NCBI GenBank assembly: GCA_025062045.1
Contig: JANXAF010000001.1
Coordinates: forward strand, 267,256-331,255
Length of the DNA stretch: 64,000 nucleotides
Origin: Thermodesulfobacteriota bacterium
GTDB lineage: Bacteria > Desulfobacterota > Syntrophorhabdia > Syntrophorhabdales > JANXAF01
Direction of reading: 5' to 3'
In this document: one piece after another, positions 38,341 through 47,728 of the stretch
Numbering within the stretch: position 1 is the first letter of the stretch
Layout: each line of letters opens with the position of its first letter
Made by a program: the position numbers and the translations under genes
The notes under the pieces: model-generated
The model's input: only the letters and a program-made list of their open reading frames with translations
The model's database searches: none
What the model was told of the DNA's origin: nothing

Positions 38341-38368
38341 ATTATAACTTTGTAAAAAGCAATGTCAA
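38341..38368 (-). promoter_or_regulatory. strong promoter of phoBR
   Basis: Minus-strand TTGACA (38363-38368) and a perfect TATAAT (38341-38346) with a 16-base spacer, giving 12/12 consensus bases. The -35 overlaps the stop codon of the upstream amidohydrolase gene. It predicts high constitutive phoBR expression. Confidence 0.8.
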
Positions 38369-39252
38369 CCTCGGCCAAATGTTCGAAGCATACTCAACGG
38401 ATTCTCGCTTATACACGTTTCTATAAGTTCTGCATCGAATCCTGCCTCTATTAATCTTTTAGCGCAAAGAGAAAGCGGTGCGTCACCTCCCTCGAGTCTT
38501 TTTTTCTTTTTGTTGTTTTTCAAGGTGCCGCGAAAAGAATCCGAAACGAGAATTATCCGGTCATTTTTTTTCATTCGGAAGACAAGTTCAATCGTTTTAA
38601 TATCTAGATGGTTCAGGTCCCCTATCACCTCAACATAAACATCCCTTTTTAAAAGTCCGAATCCGGCAATCCCTACGTTTCTGTGGTGGAAAGGTTTCAT
38701 CGCATTAAAGATATGGGTTATTAACCGGGCACCATTTTTATACGCCTCTTCCGCCTCTGTATATGTAGCCTCGGAGTGGCCCATACTCACAATGATTCCC
38801 TTTTTTGTAAGAAGCTTAATGAGCCTCATTGCACCATCAAGCTCCGGTGCGACCGTTATGACTTTCACTACATCGTAGAAACCTTCCAAAATCTCTTCCA
38901 ACTTTTTTTCATCCGGTTTTAGAAAAAACCTTCTATCCAGGGCTCCGCACCTTTTCTCATTCAAAAAGGGTCCTTCAAGGTACACACCTAAGATCCTGGC
39001 AGTATCAGAATAAGACGAATCTTTTCCAAGATAGTCCATCGCCTTTTTTATAACCTCCATGTTTTGACGCATCCTTTCTATGGGACCAGGATAGACTGCA
39101 AGAAGAATGTTACGGGTTCCGAAAGAGAAATGAGTCTTTGCGATTCTTAAAATCTCTTCGGGCGATGTAGTATCCGTACTTAGCCCTAGAATTCCATGTG
39201 TGTGGATGTCAGTGATCTCTAAGTCCTTTTGGCCCTTTCCCGAAAGAAAAAC
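38365..39252 (-). CDS. NagA-like amidohydrolase (compact), start codon not canonical
   Basis: The frame matches the barrel of N-acetylglucosamine-6-phosphate deacetylase: DIHTHGI (metal HxH at 39196-39204), YLEGPFLNEKRCGALD, MGHSEATY, THIFNAMKPFHHRNVG and VSDSFRG. The N- and C-terminal beta-sandwich parts of NagA are both absent, so this is a compact barrel form of about 295 residues. The first ATG (39070-39072) lies after the HxH motif and would give a 235-residue protein without metal ligands. Upstream the frame stays open to a stop at 39274-39276 but contains no ATG, GTG or TTG. A GGAGGTG site (39261-39267) points 8 bases downstream to a GTT codon at 39250-39252, used here as provisional start. 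Possibly degraded or sequence-errored. Confidence 0.6.
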   Translation of the reverse strand, partial: VFLSGKGQKDLEITDIHTHGILGLSTDTTSPEEILRIAKTHFSFGTRNILLAVYPGPIERMRQNMEVIKKAMDYLGKDSSYSDTARILGVYLEGPFLNEKRCGALDRRFFLKPDEKKLEEILEGFYDVVKVITVAPELDGAMRLIKLLTKKGIIVSMGHSEATYTEAEEAYKNGARLITHIFNAMKPFHHRNVGIAGFGLLKRDVYVEVIGDLNHLDIKTIELVFRMKKNDRIILVSDSFRGTLKNNKKKKRLEGGDAPLSLCAKRLIEAGFDAELIETCISENPLSMLRTFGRG

Positions 39253-39254
39253 TC

Positions 39255-40103
39255 TTAGGCCACCTCCTTCTCTTTATCCTTTCTTAATATCCTTTTTTCT
39301 TCGGGAAGGGGTGGAGGCACAGGAACACCAACGAGTTTTAAAACGGCTTTGAATTTAGGAGGACATACATCAAGGCACGTTCCACACTTTACACATTTTT
39401 CCTGATCTATTATATGGACCATCCCTTTTTTGCTGTCTATTGCTTCAACAGGACATCTTCTCGCACACGCCATGCATGCATGGCATCTTTCAGGATCTAT
39501 GTAGTAAGATGGAACATCTCTCAAAAGCGACTCGATCTCTTCTTTTGTGAAGAAGCTTTCCCACTTTTCAGGTGAGTTTTTATCGAGTCTCGTTTTGAGT
39601 TTTTCCCTCTTTTCAATCTTTATGTAGGGGATAAGCTTCATCACTCTCTCTATCTTTTCTTTAAACTCCTCATCTGAAATCTTTTCTCCTATCCCGATAG
39701 GTCCAAGTTCCCTTATCTTCGATACCATTTCGTTAACTGTCTCTGCAAAATACTGACCCATGCTGGCGTTCATAAACTCGATTCTCAATCTTTCAGGAAA
39801 TATCCCTATGTTCTCCATTATCCTTTTTGCAAGAAGAGTCATAGTGAGAGCATGGTAGTTTCCATGGGTTATGTAGTTACATTCGTCAAGCCTACAACCA
39901 GCTATATAGACACCGTCTAATCGGTTAAGAAAGGCCCTGAATATGAAGGTTAAATCGACCCTTCCTGCACACATAATCCGTATTATCCTTATATCAGGTG
40001 AGTACTGCAGCCTGGAAACTCCAGCCATATCCGCTGCGCCGTACCCTCACCAATGGCAAAGGAAAGCAAGAATTTTAGGTCTAAATTTCCCTGGGTTTTT
40101 CAC
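39255..40103 (-). CDS. MvhD/BamF-like iron-sulfur protein with selenocysteine
   Basis: This 282-residue protein accepts or passes electrons between HdrA and a partner. GTG at 40101-40103 is preceded by AAAGGAGGTGA. Codon 19 is an in-frame TGA (40047-40049) inside CHWUGYGAADMAGVSR; MvhD proteins have CxxC in that position ([2Fe-2S] ligands), so TGA is read as Sec. Then follow RIMCAGRVDLTF and AGCRLDECNY (further ligands), ending the MvhD domain at ~residue 140. A C-terminal ferredoxin domain has CHACMACARRCP and CVKCGTCLDVCP (~205-255). In Geobacter the equivalent BamF also carries selenocysteine. Starting at the first ATG after TGA (40028) would remove the N-terminal cluster motif. Last but one gene of the bam-like operon, 26 bases after hdrA. 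Confidence 0.85.
40007..40037 (-). promoter_or_regulatory. candidate SECIS element of the MvhD/BamF-like gene
   Basis: Downstream of the TGA (40047-40049) the mRNA can form GCAGC/GCTGC and, nested in it, CTGGA/TCCAG with loop GTT, the loop starting 28 bases after UGA. An alternative is CAGC/GCTG with a 7-base loop. The 5' side carries an 8-base bulge, so this is the least clean of the three. Confidence 0.4.
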
Positions 40104-40129: not shown

Positions 40130-43100
40130 TTAAGATGCCACCTCTTTTACCTCTTCGAATACGAATCTTTCAGGATTTGCCGCATCGATCTGTGCGAACA
40201 ACTGCTCGTCCTTAAAATGTTTTAGCTGAATAGCACCGGTCGGACATTTGGAATTACAGAGCCCACACCCTTTGCAAAGAACAGGGTTCATCTTTGCCTT
40301 TTTCCCCTGCTTAGTCTCGATTATCTCTATAGCACCGTATGTACAAACTTCGCTACACGCTCCACATCCTATGCATCTTTTCTCATCGACAACGCACACT
40401 GAACCGGATGCCACAACCGTATCATGGGATATGAGCGTTATTGCCCTTCCTGCGGCGCCATAAGCCTGGCTTATCGCCTCGTTTATGAATTTCGGATAGT
40501 GGGCGAGTCCGCAGAGATACACACCGTCTGTACCGAAATCTACAGGTCTTAGCTTCACGTGTGCCTCTTTGAAGAAGTTATCGAGGCCCAGTTGCAAATT
40601 AAAGAAGGAGGCGATCTCTTCATTCGTTGAGGGAGCCACAATAGCCGAAGCAAGTGAAACTATATCTGCATCTATCTCCAAATATTTGTCGAGTATAGGC
40701 TCGAAGACTATGACTTTTAAGTACTCTTTCGCTCCTTCCCTCACGACTCTAAGAGAAGGTTTTCTTTGAGGTTCGTACCTTATGAACCTAATTTCCCTTC
40801 TTTGGGCTTCCCTATAATAGTCTTCCTTAAACCCATAAGTCCGCATATCCCTAAAGAGGATATAGATATCAACATTCGGATTTATCTCCTTAAGCCATAG
40901 CGCATTCTTTACCGATTCTGCACAGCAGACCCTCGAACAGTAATTTCTCTCTTCATTTCTCGATCCAACACACTGGATCATGACTACTGTATTTGCTTTG
41001 AGAACCTTTTCGTCCTTTTTCGCTATGAGCTCTTCGAGTTCCAAGTTCGTAAAAACTTTATCTGACTCTCCGTACATGTACTCATTTGGTTTCAGTTCCT
41101 CCGCACCTGTTGCGATGATCGTGGCACCATGTTTAATCTCGAACTCTCCCCTCTCAGATTCAATCTTTGTTACAAAGTTCCCAACATATCCTGAGGCAGA
41201 TATGATTTTCGAACCCAAAAAAACATGTATACGCGGTTCGCTATAGACTTTCTTTATCAGATCTTTTAGATAGGCCTGGACATCCATACCTTCGAGGGTG
41301 TAATAGATCCTTCTCGCTATCCCTCCCAGCTCTTTCTCCTTCTCGATAAGAAAGACTTCAAAACCTTGGGACGCGCAGCTTATGGCGCTTGTCATACCCG
41401 CAATCCCTCCTCCTACTACGAGCACCCGCTTATCAACAGGTAGTTCGAACTCTTCAAGAGATTCCAAAAATAACGCTCTCGCTAAGGACATCCGCACAAG
41501 ATCCTTAGATTTTTCGGTGGCGTCCTCTTTTTCCTTTGAGTGCACCCATGAGCAGTGCTCTCTTATGTTCGCAAACTCAAAATAATACTGGTTCAATCCT
41601 CCTTCCCGCAAAGAATCCCTGAATGTTGGCTCGTGCGTTCTTGGTGTACAGGCGGCAACTACAACTCTATTGAGATTGTATTCTTTTATAGCCTCCATTA
41701 TCTGTTTTGTCGATTCCGTCGAGCATGAGAAGAGTTGGCCAGCCACATGCACGACGTAAGGAAGTTTATTGGCATATTCTATGACGGAGGGCACGTCCAC
41801 GACGCGCCCTATATTTGCCCCTCAGTAACAGACAAAGACACCGACCCGCGGTATTTCGTCTTTAACATCCTTTTCCGGAGGATAGATCCTTCTCTTTGTA
41901 AGCTTGCCTCTACGGTAATTTAGCAGCTCCCCACACTTGGAGGCAGCCCCGCTTGCACCGAAGACAGCCTCTGGAATATCTAGCGGACCTATGGATGCCC
42001 CACATACAAAGACACCTGGCCGGTTCGTCTCAATAGGTGAAAATGGTTGGGTTTTTACGAAATCGTGCTCGTTTAGCTCAACTCCTAACTTCTGAGCAAG
42101 GCTTCTCACATTCTTGGGGGGACAGAGTCCGACAGCGAGAACGACCATTTCGAATTCTTCCTCCTTCACCCCCTCCGTTGTCGAATACCTGATCGTTATG
42201 TTGTGTGTTGAAGGGTCCTCCCGCACTATGTTAACGAAGCTTCTTATAAACCTCACTTTTGGTAAGCCTTCCGCCCTCTGATAAAACCTCTCAAAGTCCT
42301 TTCCGTACGCCCTTATATCGTTGTGAAAGACCACACATTCTGCATCCGGATTATGATCTTTAGTGAGGATTACCTGTTTTTGGGTATATGTGCAACAAAC
42401 AGCAGAACAGTAACTTTTACTTCCCTTGACCAGATCCCTAGAACCTACGCATTGGATCCATGCTATCTTGTTTGGGTGCCTAAGATCTGAGGATCTTTTT
42501 ATCTCACCCTCGTAAGGTCCTGTGGAACTTAGGATTCTCTCATAGTCCATGCTGGTCACAATATTTTTGTACACCCTATATTTGTAGTCCCTTCTTAAGC
42601 GCGGATCATAAGGATCAAAACCCCACGCAATTACTATGGCGCCGACATTTATATCCACTTTTTTTGGCCTGTCTGTGAAATCTATAGCATTATGCTTGCA
42701 AACCGCCTCGCATATCTTGCACTTCTTTTCTTTGAGGTAGAGACAGTTCTCATCGATGTACGTGATAAGCGGGATTGCCTGTGAAAAGTATATGTGTATT
42801 GCCTTGTTTTTAGAGATCTCTTGGTTGAAAGGATCCGGAATTCTGACAGGGCAATAATCAACACAGGCACTGCATCCAGTGCATTTGTCTTCCCTTATAT
42901 ACCTTGGCTTTTTAAGTATCGTTACCGTAAAGTCGCCTGCCTCACCCTCTACATGCTCGATCTCTGTGTAACTTAGAACCTTTATGTTTGGATGCCGGCC
43001 GACCTCGACCAGCTTAGGGGAAAGTATTCAGATAGAACACTCATTAGTGGGGAATGTCTTGTCTAGTTGGGCCATATGGCCGCCGATGGAAGGGGCACTG

Positions 43101-43262: not shown

Positions 43263-44051
43263 TTATCTGAACTTTATTCTTTCAGGATTCGAAAATATTG
43301 AAAATCCGTTTTTTTTTGCGTGACCAATCAAAGTGATACCGAGATTTTTTGCGTGATCGACTGCACCCTCTGTCGGGGAACGCCTGCTCACAACTAAAGG
43401 AACACCGAGCTTTGCTCCCTTAAGGATCATCTCTGAGGAAACCCGTCCCGTTGTAATTAGAATCATCTCCTCTATCCGAACATTACTTTTTAAAGCCTCG
43501 CCTGCGAGTTTGTCGAGAGTGTTGTGCCTCCCAATGTCGTCCGCCACAAAGACAAGATCTTTTGATCGCGCAAGGGCTGAGGTATGGATCCCACTTGCCT
43601 GTCTTCGTTCCTCAACGTATCCTGTGAAATTCTTTATAGCTTCTACGAGTTCATCCGCAAAGAAACAGATATCCGAATCCACCTTTTTAATCTCTTTTTC
43701 GAAGATTGCTCCTCCACCCAATCCCACAGGTACCGTCCTTCCTTTTGGTGAAAGGGAATTAGCTCCCAAAATCTCCACATCAACTTCGTTTTTATCGTAT
43801 GACCAGACCATCTTTTTTAGATCGTCAAGTCCAGAAATGAACCCCTCCAGGTACAGATACCCAATGACTAAGAACTCAAGCTTTATGGGAGTACAAAGGA
43901 TATTCACCAGTTCAACGCCGTTAATTTTAAGTTTTAGCTTCTTTTCTCTAGGGATTGTTGCAAAGCCTTGAGAAAGATCACCTTCAAAGAAAAAATCACA
44001 TGGAACGTTTATCGTTTTTTCTTCCACCTTCGTCGTCTGGATTGTGCTCAT
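43263..44051 (-). CDS. fdhD: FdhD-like protein lacking the CxxC pair
   Basis: FdhD transfers sulfur from IscS to the Mo/W cofactor of formate dehydrogenase. This 262-residue homologue has the family core: [68 protein letters not shown] (in two pieces) and NPERI. Where E. coli FdhD has CGVCG this protein reads GLGGGA, with no cysteine, so sulfur relay by the usual residues is not possible. It is embedded between the BamD-like and HdrA genes (ATGA overlap upstream, 13 bases downstream), suggesting a role in tungsten-cofactor handling for the AOR-type subunit. Confidence 0.82.
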
Positions 44052-45199
44052 ATAACCTCGTCTAGAATTTCAGCTATATCCTTTACCTCAATTCTGTCGC
44101 TCAAATTCATTACCAGTCTCGAGTCCTCGAACGCCGTTATGCAATACGGGCATGATGTAACGAGCTCTTGAGCTTCAATCTTTGCAGCTTCTTCAATCCT
44201 TAAGTTTGAGAACCTCTCCTCCTTTGGGGTTTCCATCCACACTCTCCCTCCCCCCATTCCGCAACATAGGCTGTCTTCCCTTGAATCTTTTAATTCCACA
44301 AGCTCAAGTCCCGGGATAGACTTAAGGATCTCTCTCGGCTCGTCAAATATTCCGTTATGTCTACCCAAATAGCAGGGGTCATGATAGACAACCCTTTTTT
44401 TGTACTCTTTTTTTATTTTGAGTCTTCCGTTTAAAAGAAGTTCGTATGCGACCTCCGATAGGTGGAGCACCTCAAAGTTAACTTTTAATTCTGGATATTC
44501 ATTTTTGAATGTGTGGTAGCAATGCGGTGAGGAGACTATGATTCTTTTCACGCCGCTATCCACAAAGGCCTTTATGTTTTCCTTAGCTAGGCGGATAAAA
44601 AGATCCTCATTTCCGGATCTCTTAATGCTCTCACCGCAGCAATTCTCTCTTTGTCCCAGGATTCCAAAGTCAATCTTTGCCTTGTTAAGAATATTGACGA
44701 CCGATCTTGCCACCCTTTTCAATCTAGGATCGTATGAAAGGTAACAACAGGTAAAGTACAGATACTCGGTCTTGTCATTATGCTCTTTTACTGATAATCC
44801 GGAAGCCCATTCATTTCTTTTCTGCCTTTCTTCATTGAAAGGATTTCCTTGCCACTGGAGTCCCTGAACTATCGACCTTATAGGCTTTACTGGACCAGGA
44901 AATATTCCATATTTGGTGGCTATCCTTCTTAAAGCGACCATATCTTCTATCTGCTTCACATCTCGAGGGCATATAACCGGGCATCTACCACACGTTGTGC
45001 ACTTCCATATTTCTTCCTTTTCTACCTCGCTAAGTCCGAACGTAGCCTCGCGAATAACCTTTCTTACACTGAAATTCGAAACCTCATTCCAGGGACAAAC
45101 AGTATCGCACTTCCCGCACTGGAAGCAGTTCGTTACAGCTCTTCCTCCGCACTCTTTTATCTCATCTATTACTTCCTTGAAAGGGGCTAAAGTCTCCAT
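44048..45199 (-). CDS. HdrD/BamD-like iron-sulfur subunit with two CCG domains
   Basis: The 383-residue protein starts with two [4Fe-4S] motifs, CFQCGKCDTVCPW and CTTCGRCPVICP (residues ~25-82). Two CCG domains follow: YFTCCYLSYDP...NCCGESIK and HDPCYLGRHNG...LCCGMGGG, which in HdrB/HdrD bind the noncubane disulfide-active clusters. It begins 2 bases after the ferredoxin gene and overlaps fdhD by ATGA. In Bam complexes the equivalent is BamD, linking the BamBC catalytic unit to the HdrA-like subunit. Confidence 0.87.
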   Translation of the reverse strand: METLAPFKEVIDEIKECGGRAVTNCFQCGKCDTVCPWNEVSNFSVRKVIREATFGLSEVEKEEIWKCTTCGRCPVICPRDVKQIEDMVALRRIATKYGIFPGPVKPIRSIVQGLQWQGNPFNEERQKRNEWASGLSVKEHNDKTEYLYFTCCYLSYDPRLKRVARSVVNILNKAKIDFGILGQRENCCGESIKRSGNEDLFIRLAKENIKAFVDSGVKRIIVSSPHCYHTFKNEYPELKVNFEVLHLSEVAYELLLNGRLKIKKEYKKRVVYHDPCYLGRHNGIFDEPREILKSIPGLELVELKDSREDSLCCGMGGGRVWMETPKEERFSNLRIEEAAKIEAQELVTSCPYCITAFEDSRLVMNLSDRIEVKDIAEILDEVI

Positions 45200-45201
45200 T
45201 T

Positions 45202-45753
45202 TTACTCTTTTCCACCTAGTCTATATACGGCGTTGAGGACTTTGTCCCAGCCATATCTGTCTATGAGCGCCTGGACGCCAGTATCTATCTCATCAGGCTT
45301 TGTTTCCTCTTCAACTTCTTCCTCCTTCTCCTCATAGGTTATGGCATCCACAAGACACCACTTTGCGCACATAGGCTTATCGAGGGGTGGATCGCTCTCA
45401 CACATGTCGCATTTAAGTGGAAGGCCAGTGTCGGGCTCTTTAAAGATGTCTCTCGAAGGACAGGAGGCTCCACAGAAACTACACACGCTTATTCCATCAC
45501 CGTAGCTACTCTGTGGTCTCTCTTCTAAAAAGTATACAGGTCTTCCCGCGCACTCGGCACTCGTATAAAAACTCGATTTTACTGGAACAAAAACGTTTTT
45601 CAGCTCATTCCTGAAAACGTGGATCCTGGATCTTGCGAGGTTGACACTACTGAACTTGGGATTTGCGTGAAATGCAGCACAAGCAACTTCGCAAGCTTTA
45701 CAGCCCATGCATTTGTTAAGATCGATTTTTAGAACTTTGACCTTCCTTTTCAT
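45202..45753 (-). CDS. BamC-like ferredoxin subunit
   Basis: The 183-residue protein has an N-terminal cluster motif CMGCKACEVAC (15-25), a middle CSFCGASC, then CDMCESDPPL and CAKWC, enough for about three [4Fe-4S] clusters. It closely follows the AOR-type gene (10 bases) and precedes the HdrD-like gene, the bamB-C-D order. The C-terminal 45 residues begin with an acidic stretch (EEKEEEVEEETK). It probably delivers electrons to the tungsten subunit. Confidence 0.82.
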   Translation of the reverse strand: MKRKVKVLKIDLNKCMGCKACEVACAAFHANPKFSSVNLARSRIHVFRNELKNVFVPVKSSFYTSAECAGRPVYFLEERPQSSYGDGISVCSFCGASCPSRDIFKEPDTGLPLKCDMCESDPPLDKPMCAKWCLVDAITYEEKEEEVEEETKPDEIDTGVQALIDRYGWDKVLNAVYRLGGKE

Positions 45754-45763
45754 TTCAACCCCT

Positions 45764-47728
45764 CTATTCGCTCAGTATTCCCCGTTTTACAAAGTCTTCA
45801 TAGACATAATCAAGTCCTAGCTTTTTAAGTGTCTCCTTTGTTGGTATCCCTTGGGAATTCCATCCTCTGTATTTGTAGTACTCATCCATAAGCTTCTTCT
45901 CATATTCGGGGAACCTTTTTTTCCAGTGATCCTCTGGAGGTTTTTCATCCTCTCTTCTAAGGCCCCTCCTTATATTGTTAGCCCTCACCAAGTTTCTGAC
46001 CCGTGTAGCAATCTTCCAGAGTTCATCTTCATCAACCTCGAATCCCGCACCGTATGACACAAATAAAGGAAGATTGTGAATGTGATACGGAGGCTTTATC
46101 GGGAATGATGATACACCAGCACAAAGCCCTAATGAATCATCTATGTAATGCATAGTCTCCTGCCATTCCACAAGCTCACACACAAGGTCAGGGGGAGGCC
46201 AGAACGGAAAAGTCTTTCCCTCTTCGCCCCACTCCAATATGAACTGCTTAAACCTTTCCTCTTTTCCCGTTGGTATCTGTATCCAGTCCTTTACAAACTC
46301 CTCTCTCCACTCCCTCGGTAGAGGCGCCTGTGGTATCTGTCCTTCTATTTGCGTTATATTTGCCTTTTCCCCTGTAGACCACATTATGTAATAAATCGGG
46401 TTTAGCATTCCCAGTTTTATCGGTACCTGCTCGTGTTTCTTTATCGTGTTATGGTCAAAGGCTTCCGCCCCTCGCCCAATCTTTCTTGCAGCCCAGTAGA
46501 CTCCGTCCGCTAAAACGTCTCCTATACCTTCTCTTCTCACTATTCTTTCCAAAAGCCAGAAAAACCTTTCCTTTTTATCCTTTGGAAAACCTTCCATCTC
46601 ACTTTCTGTAAGTATTCCATTCTCGTAAAGTTCTATGGCAAATGCCATGACCTGAGGTGCAGTAAAGCCGTCAACACCGTAATGCTGCGCCCGAGATAGT
46701 ATCTGGAAGCCAAAGTCAAGATCGTCGACTTCGGCCGCCATAACGTAAGTCAGCTTTGTAAAGCATTTAAGTATATAGGTTGGATATCCTGGAACCTCTA
46801 TTATTCCGGCGCACCTTACAGGGCAATTGTAACAGCTAATCAGCCTCTTTCTCACACTTTCCATCGTTTCTGCCCATCTTTTTTCTATATCCTTATTCCA
46901 GAACCCTTTTCTCCTGTACCTCGCATGACCCCAGGCGAAGCTATCGAGGTGCCATTCCTCATCGTGGAGAGCCATCTCCTGGGGTGAACCGATGTAAGCC
47001 AGTATTGGAGGTACACCAGGTATCGGATTGTTCAGCCTGTACTGTATGTACTCTAGTACTTTATTACATTCATTTATGAACTCTAAAGGTTTTGCCACAT
47101 TTATGTCCTTTGTTCCCCTAACAGCCACTGCCTTTAGTTTTTTGTCACCCATTATCGCTCCGAGACCGAGTCTACTAGCGCTTCCTCTGTGGGTTTCAAT
47201 GGATGCGAAGTAAACCCTGTTTTCGCCGGCTAGGCCTATTGAAACGATCTGAGCCCTGGGTTCGCCAAGCTCCTCTCTTATTGTTTCCGCAGTCTCATAG
47301 GTGCTCTTTCCTTGGAGGTGTCTGGCATCTCTTATTTCGACTTTGTCGTTGTTTATCCATATGTAGACCCAGTCCGGGGCTTTTCCTTTTACAACTATCT
47401 TGTCGTATCCAGCGAATTTGAGCTCCGGAGCCCAGTAACCTCCCATTATGGAAAAACCGAAAAGAGAGTTTTGAGGAGAAATTGAGGTTATGATTGTTCT
47501 ATTTGCAGCGGGAGCCGGAGTACCGACAAGGAGTCCCGCGCTAAATATGAGAAGGTTTTCCGGGGAAAAGGGTTCGACATCCGGTGAAATCCTATCCCAA
47601 AAGATCTTAGCGTTTGTGCCTAAACCCCCTAGATACACTTGCGTTGTCTCTGGGTCAGTCTGAACTTTCTCAATGTTTCCAGTGGAAAGATCTATCTCAA
47701 GGATATAACCGGTTTCCGCGTACCTCAT
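45764..47728 (-). CDS. bamB: BamB-like tungsten oxidoreductase (class II benzoyl-CoA reductase active-site subunit type)
   Basis: The 654-residue AOR-family protein begins MRYAETGYILEIDLSTGN and is collinear with BamB of Geobacter. Residues E251, H255 and H260 (in SPQEMALHDEEWH) and C322 (in LKCFTKLTY) fall at the same numbers as the active-site residues recalled for the Geobacter enzyme. [4Fe-4S] ligands are C299, C302, C306 and a Cys near 536. BamB reduces benzoyl-CoA to the 1,5-dienoyl-CoA. It heads the operon. No benzoate-CoA ligase, dienoyl-CoA hydratase or BamGHI genes are in this window, so another aromatic or cyclic acyl-CoA is possible. A weak TTGACT/TAGAGA promoter lies at 47785-47807. 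Confidence 0.85.
   Translation of the reverse strand: MRYAETGYILEIDLSTGNIEKVQTDPETTQVYLGGLGTNAKIFWDRISPDVEPFSPENLLIFSAGLLVGTPAPAANRTIITSISPQNSLFGFSIMGGYWAPELKFAGYDKIVVKGKAPDWVYIWINNDKVEIRDARHLQGKSTYETAETIREELGEPRAQIVSIGLAGENRVYFASIETHRGSASRLGLGAIMGDKKLKAVAVRGTKDINVAKPLEFINECNKVLEYIQYRLNNPIPGVPPILAYIGSPQEMALHDEEWHLDSFAWGHARYRRKGFWNKDIEKRWAETMESVRKRLISCYNCPVRCAGIIEVPGYPTYILKCFTKLTYVMAAEVDDLDFGFQILSRAQHYGVDGFTAPQVMAFAIELYENGILTESEMEGFPKDKKERFFWLLERIVRREGIGDVLADGVYWAARKIGRGAEAFDHNTIKKHEQVPIKLGMLNPIYYIMWSTGEKANITQIEGQIPQAPLPREWREEFVKDWIQIPTGKEERFKQFILEWGEEGKTFPFWPPPDLVCELVEWQETMHYIDDSLGLCAGVSSFPIKPPYHIHNLPLFVSYGAGFEVDEDELWKIATRVRNLVRANNIRRGLRREDEKPPEDHWKKRFPEYEKKLMDEYYKYRGWNSQGIPTKETLKKLGLDYVYEDFVKRGILSE

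Follow-up and report, generated by a model that had tools for sequence, protein, structure and literature searches.

Loss of the single loop cysteine from an FdhD-like protein encoded in a bam-like operon

A bam-like operon in the window, by which we mean the whole 64,000-nucleotide stretch of Thermodesulfobacteriota DNA analysed here, encodes an FdhD-like protein that keeps the FdhD fold and core motifs and has no cysteine in its loop, a loss that dates to one family. With a probability of roughly 0.5, we interpret this protein as a bam-operon-specific paralogue without a loop-cysteine sulfur relay, which most likely would still bind the pterin cofactor and would assist in loading or protecting BamB's tungsten cofactor. 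FdhDs without loop cysteines and fdhD genes in bam clusters have both been published already; the present case adds a lineage-specific loss at a recently published location.

The fdhD-like reading frame (Table 1) is intact, and its match to the FdhD/NarQ family spans the whole length, with scores of 194.9 bits for PF02634 (E 2.4e-57, cut-off 27.2) and 157 bits for TIGR00129 (cut-off 140.9). An AlphaFold2 model (pLDDT 87) adopts the FdhD fold, with 4PDE as the best PDB match (E 2.3e-23) and 2PW9 at E 3.3e-22. The first of these, Escherichia coli FdhD, is a formate dehydrogenase sulfurtransferase and chaperone that has the fold (TM 0.80/0.85) and family motifs in common with the window protein, but it carries a CxxC loop, serves formate dehydrogenases and is only 23% identical. 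The closest solved sequence is the FdhD-like protein of Desulfotalea psychrophila (2PW9, E 2.9e-20), which belongs to the GCGG-type class of single-cysteine loops and, unlike the window protein, retains that cysteine. DIGRHNT, TGRxSSEM and related motifs are conserved, with cofactor or GDP binding being their putative function. Loop residues 102-114 are predicted to be disordered in the model, and the loop is likewise described as disordered in solved FdhDs (PMC10609526). Thus, the sequence-only reading correctly recognized an FdhD-like protein in a bam-like operon, otherwise conserved.

Table 1. Features of the bam-like operon and of its FdhD-like protein, in window coordinates
Feature	Position	Strand	Remarks
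fdhD-like gene	43263..44051	(-)	262 aa; PF02634 195 bits, TIGR00129 157 bits; AlphaFold2 model
Cys18, N-terminal	43998..44000	(-)	common to bam-operon FdhDs
Cys53 of LCTP motif	43893..43895	(-)	kept across whole bam-FdhD clade
Leu111 codon TTG	43719..43721	(-)	site of single loop Cys, GCGGG to GLGGG; TTA in sister genus
bamB, AOR/WOR-family catalytic subunit	45764..47728	(-)	4Z3W 1011 bits over residues 1-653
bamC-like polyferredoxin subunit	45202..45753	(-)	Fe-S profiles and operon synteny
bamD-like HdrC/HdrB-type subunit	44048..45199	(-)	CCG domain 121 bits; stop overlaps fdhD start by 4 bases
bamE-like HdrA, 1039 aa	40130..43249	(-)	HdrA2 profile; two in-frame TGA (43028-43030, 41822-41824) read as Sec
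bamF-like MvhD and ferredoxin	39255..40103	(-)	FlpD 117 bits; in-frame TGA 40047-40049; start codon tentative

The genes are arranged in the order bamB-C-D-fdhD-bamE-bamF. When BamB is aligned to its Geobacter metallireducens counterpart (4Z3W), the tungsten ligand Cys322 and the zinc/proton-relay residues Glu251, His255, Glu257 and His260 are all conserved (for their roles see PMC12096430). Every known catalytic residue of class II benzoyl-CoA reductase is therefore present, and benzoyl-CoA reduction is the predicted activity. The bamE-like HdrA is a probable double-Sec selenoprotein: both of its in-frame TGA codons fall where Cys or Sec is conserved (NECSI-U-ILSPKL and VGVFVCY-U-G), and because of them an ORF caller breaks the gene into three. 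A TGA in the bamF-like gene (FLCHWUGYGAADMAGVSRL) likely specifies a third selenocysteine of the operon. The same genome holds a second bamB-C-D-HdrA-MvhD operon (G000:C2:56500-76000) that has neither an fdhD nor an in-frame TGA in its HdrA, and whose BamB is 59% identical to the one in the window. Near the operon, positions 38365-39072 (-) encode an N-acetylglucosamine-6-phosphate deacetylase-like ORF that covers only profile positions 108-283 of 380 and is probably a remnant.

The loop of the window protein reads GLGGG and so has neither the CxxC nor the GCGGG sequence expected of an FdhD that relays persulfide through its loop. Two types of FdhD exist among relatives, the classic SSCGxCG and the single-cysteine SGCGGG. 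In our tree the SSCGxCG proteins form a separate clade, and the window protein falls in a 26-row SGCGGG clade (support 100/98) that unites the bam-linked FdhDs, nearly all of those in bam operons, with two orphan copies. Because this clade carries a single-cysteine loop, one cysteine was lost and not a pair, and descent from a CxxC ancestor is ruled out. Hence, the sequence-only reading was right that the loop (given as GLGGGA) lacks cysteine, but the motif replaced was GCGGG and not CGxCG. The only close partner in the tree (100/100) is the orthologue L090 from a sister genus (SKW240 MAG, G002), which was also the sole match in a scan of genome contigs and has the same GLGGG loop, with TTA instead of TTG as the leucine codon. 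The simplest account is a single loss of the cysteine before the two genera diverged. Such a loss is not a rare event, since the loop cysteine is independently missing elsewhere in our sample (L052, L098, L103, L050 and a tandem pair in L043). The tandem pair consists of overlapping FdhD-like ORFs (L043 586-2216, G019), neither of which has loop cysteines; their genome encodes BamB and no recognisable formate dehydrogenase.

There is almost no chance that GLGGG reflects a shifted cysteine or an error in sequencing or assembly, and we found no support for either. An independent MAG has the same leucine with another codon, which refutes an error. As for a shift, which the sequence-only reading had named as a possible objection, there is no in-frame cysteine nearby. 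The other cysteines of the protein are C18 and C53, which are common to Cys-loop relatives and thus not new, and C129, which is private to it. Cys84, typical of the clade, is also gone.

About 20 loci have the gene order bamB-C-D-fdhD-bamE-bamF; they occur in many genomes of the order and in some outside it. The window FdhD, whose gene lies between bamD and bamE, clusters with the other FdhDs encoded at that place. A survey of FdhDs adjacent to bam genes for the same loss, as had been suggested with the sequence-only reading, largely bears out what that reading had itself named as a refutation: about 20 related bam operons encode an FdhD that keeps the GCGGG loop. Relay loss is therefore not a property of bam-linked FdhDs, and the missing cysteine is a derived trait of one family, not a consequence of serving tungstopterin. 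What survives of the proposed cofactor chaperone without a relay is the loss of the cysteine from a protein with a preserved core, together with a bam-linked role. Such a role is plausible because many bam operons include fdhD as an integral part, among them one from a 99%-complete genome in which no formate dehydrogenase can be recognised. An FdhD between BamD and BamE has also been reported for the bam cluster of a benzene-degrading culture, where its peptides were detected by proteomics (PMC13101534). We liken this protein, from Candidatus Anaerobenzenivorax ORM2a, to the window FdhD by its position; relatives with that gene order have GCGGG. Nevertheless, BamB needs no FdhD in cis: in a third genus of the window's family (G001) the syntenic operon, groEL-bamB-C-D-E-F, lacks fdhD, and the gene is also absent from several other bam operons.

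The chemistry of BamB fits a chaperone without a relay. The loop cysteine of classical FdhD accepts sulfur from a cysteine desulfurase, and FdhD passes this sulfur to bis-MGD, the cofactor that it binds and delivers (PMC10609526). In BamB, the tungsten of W-bis-MPT is described as coordinated by four dithiolene sulfurs, Cys322 and water as the sixth ligand (PMC12096430), such that there is no terminal sulfido ligand to install. Moreover, FdhD/FdsC function does not strictly depend on the loop cysteines, and binding and delivery of bis-MGD persist in Cys-to-Ala variants (PMC6239281). Since such variants function, we infer rather than observe that the window protein no longer relays sulfur. Natural parallels are the group III FdhDs (PMC6239281) and that of Methanococcus maripaludis (PMC10609526), which likewise have no loop cysteines and a preserved cofactor-binding motif, although they are tied to formate dehydrogenases and the window protein to a benzoyl-CoA reductase. 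Two further observations count against a BamB chaperone: most bam-linked FdhDs retain the loop cysteine even though a sulfido ligand seems unnecessary for BamB, and classical FdhD binds the nucleotide-bearing bis-MGD whereas the MPT of BamB has no nucleotide.

It is also conceivable, although rather unlikely, that constraint has simply been relaxed, with the bam-linked fdhD of this family being partly redundant and drifting toward loss, so that the cysteine disappeared and no new role arose. For example, fdhD has been lost from the orthologous G001 operon, and nearly half of the BamB-bearing genomes of the order have no bam-clade FdhD. Between the window's genome and the sister MAG, FdhD is only 52% identical and BamB 92%, and the FdhD/BamD distance ratio is 2.2 in this family versus 1.35 among other bam operons; this roughly 1.6-fold faster evolution of FdhD relative to BamD also fits decay. 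However, the gene is intact, and an identical GLGGG persists in two genera that have diverged to synonymous saturation. Given this saturation, we compared pN and pS for the FdhD pair instead of dN/dS, and pN (0.31) is well below the saturated pS (0.80), which indicates that purifying selection persists. Both GLGGG proteins retain 61 of the 92 near-invariant columns of the clade, including C53-T-P, GxHxSAL, DIGRHNT and TGRxSSEM, and both have changed at 18, including Cys111, Cys84, Leu148-Tyr149 and Glu171.

Alternatively, the window FdhD might still mature a Sec formate dehydrogenase by a route independent of loop cysteines, its bam location being incidental. We consider this improbable. The sequence-only reading was right that the operon contains no formate dehydrogenase, but a Sec-type enzyme is encoded elsewhere in the genome (G000:C3:152094-154097; TIGR01591 873 bits, one in-frame TGA). 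That gene (L140 8580-11249) has a NuoG-like N-terminus, and its neighbours, read by eye, are ETF, NiFe-hydrogenase and NfnB-like genes, possibly forming a bifurcating complex. No second FdhD was found in this 97%-complete genome, and thus the window protein may have to serve formate dehydrogenase too, unless another copy lies in the missing 3%. Full-length aminotransferase-V proteins, of the cysteine desulfurase family, are present as well. There is precedent for such a route in Rhodobacter capsulatus FdsC, whose loop-Cys variants are fully active (PMC6239281), and in Cys-less FdhDs, archaeal ones among them, of formate users (PMC10609526). FdsC, unlike the window protein, has loop cysteines naturally, and it belongs to group I with an NAD-dependent formate dehydrogenase as its client. 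Against this alternative stands bam synteny conserved across families, and the 99%-complete genome mentioned above (G006) has a bam-linked GCGGG FdhD without a TIGR01591-level formate dehydrogenase, a pattern repeated in the less complete G014 and G036. A bam copy thus has a use beyond that enzyme, and bam-linked FdhD probably has another client. In addition, G001 and the sister MAG each have a TIGR01591-level formate dehydrogenase and, away from the bam operon, an orphan FdhD with a GCGGG loop. In the sister genus this second, Cys-bearing FdhD could serve the Sec enzyme, in which case the bam copy could lose its loop cysteine. A topology with the two FdhD copies of the family as sister clades is neither demonstrated nor rejected (p-AU 0.29). 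The ferredoxin gene found near fdhD in G001 has a homologue in the window's genome (C6:27491-28123) in a different gene neighbourhood, which lacks fdhD.

Of our new observations, the pattern at Cys18 lends itself best to testing. The sample takes in nearly all of the 46 genomes of the order. This column holds cysteine in 21 of the 23 bam-operon FdhDs of the clade, although the N-terminus aligns less surely than the rest. It holds none in the sampled FdhDs outside the clade or in either orphan copy. In the sister MAG, Cys18 is present and Cys111 missing in the bam copy L090, and the opposite holds for the orphan copy L120. Similarly, of two bam copies in G036, L052 has Cys18 and no loop cysteine, and L097 the reverse, with another cysteine nine residues upstream of the Cys18 column. 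Hence, in two lineages the Cys-less copy holds Cys18 while its Cys-loop paralogue has no cysteine at the aligned position. Because the sequences are related by descent, we claim no significance for this distribution, but the bam role of FdhD may depend on Cys18. A more speculative and doubtful extension is that bam-linked FdhDs form a separate class of factors that mature the tungsten cofactor of BamB, in which the loop cysteine would act in sulfuration for formate dehydrogenases and Cys18 in handling the BamB cofactor, and that duplications split these tasks by reciprocal cysteine loss (L090 versus L120, L052 versus L097).

Maturation of the tungsten cofactor of BamB, and hence of class II benzoyl-CoA reductase, appears to be little studied in the literature that we found. 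A family that has lost the loop cysteine beside relatives that keep it constitutes a natural experiment that bears on the way in which FdhD acts on BamB, sulfuration or cofactor delivery. For mutation, Cys18 is a specific target.
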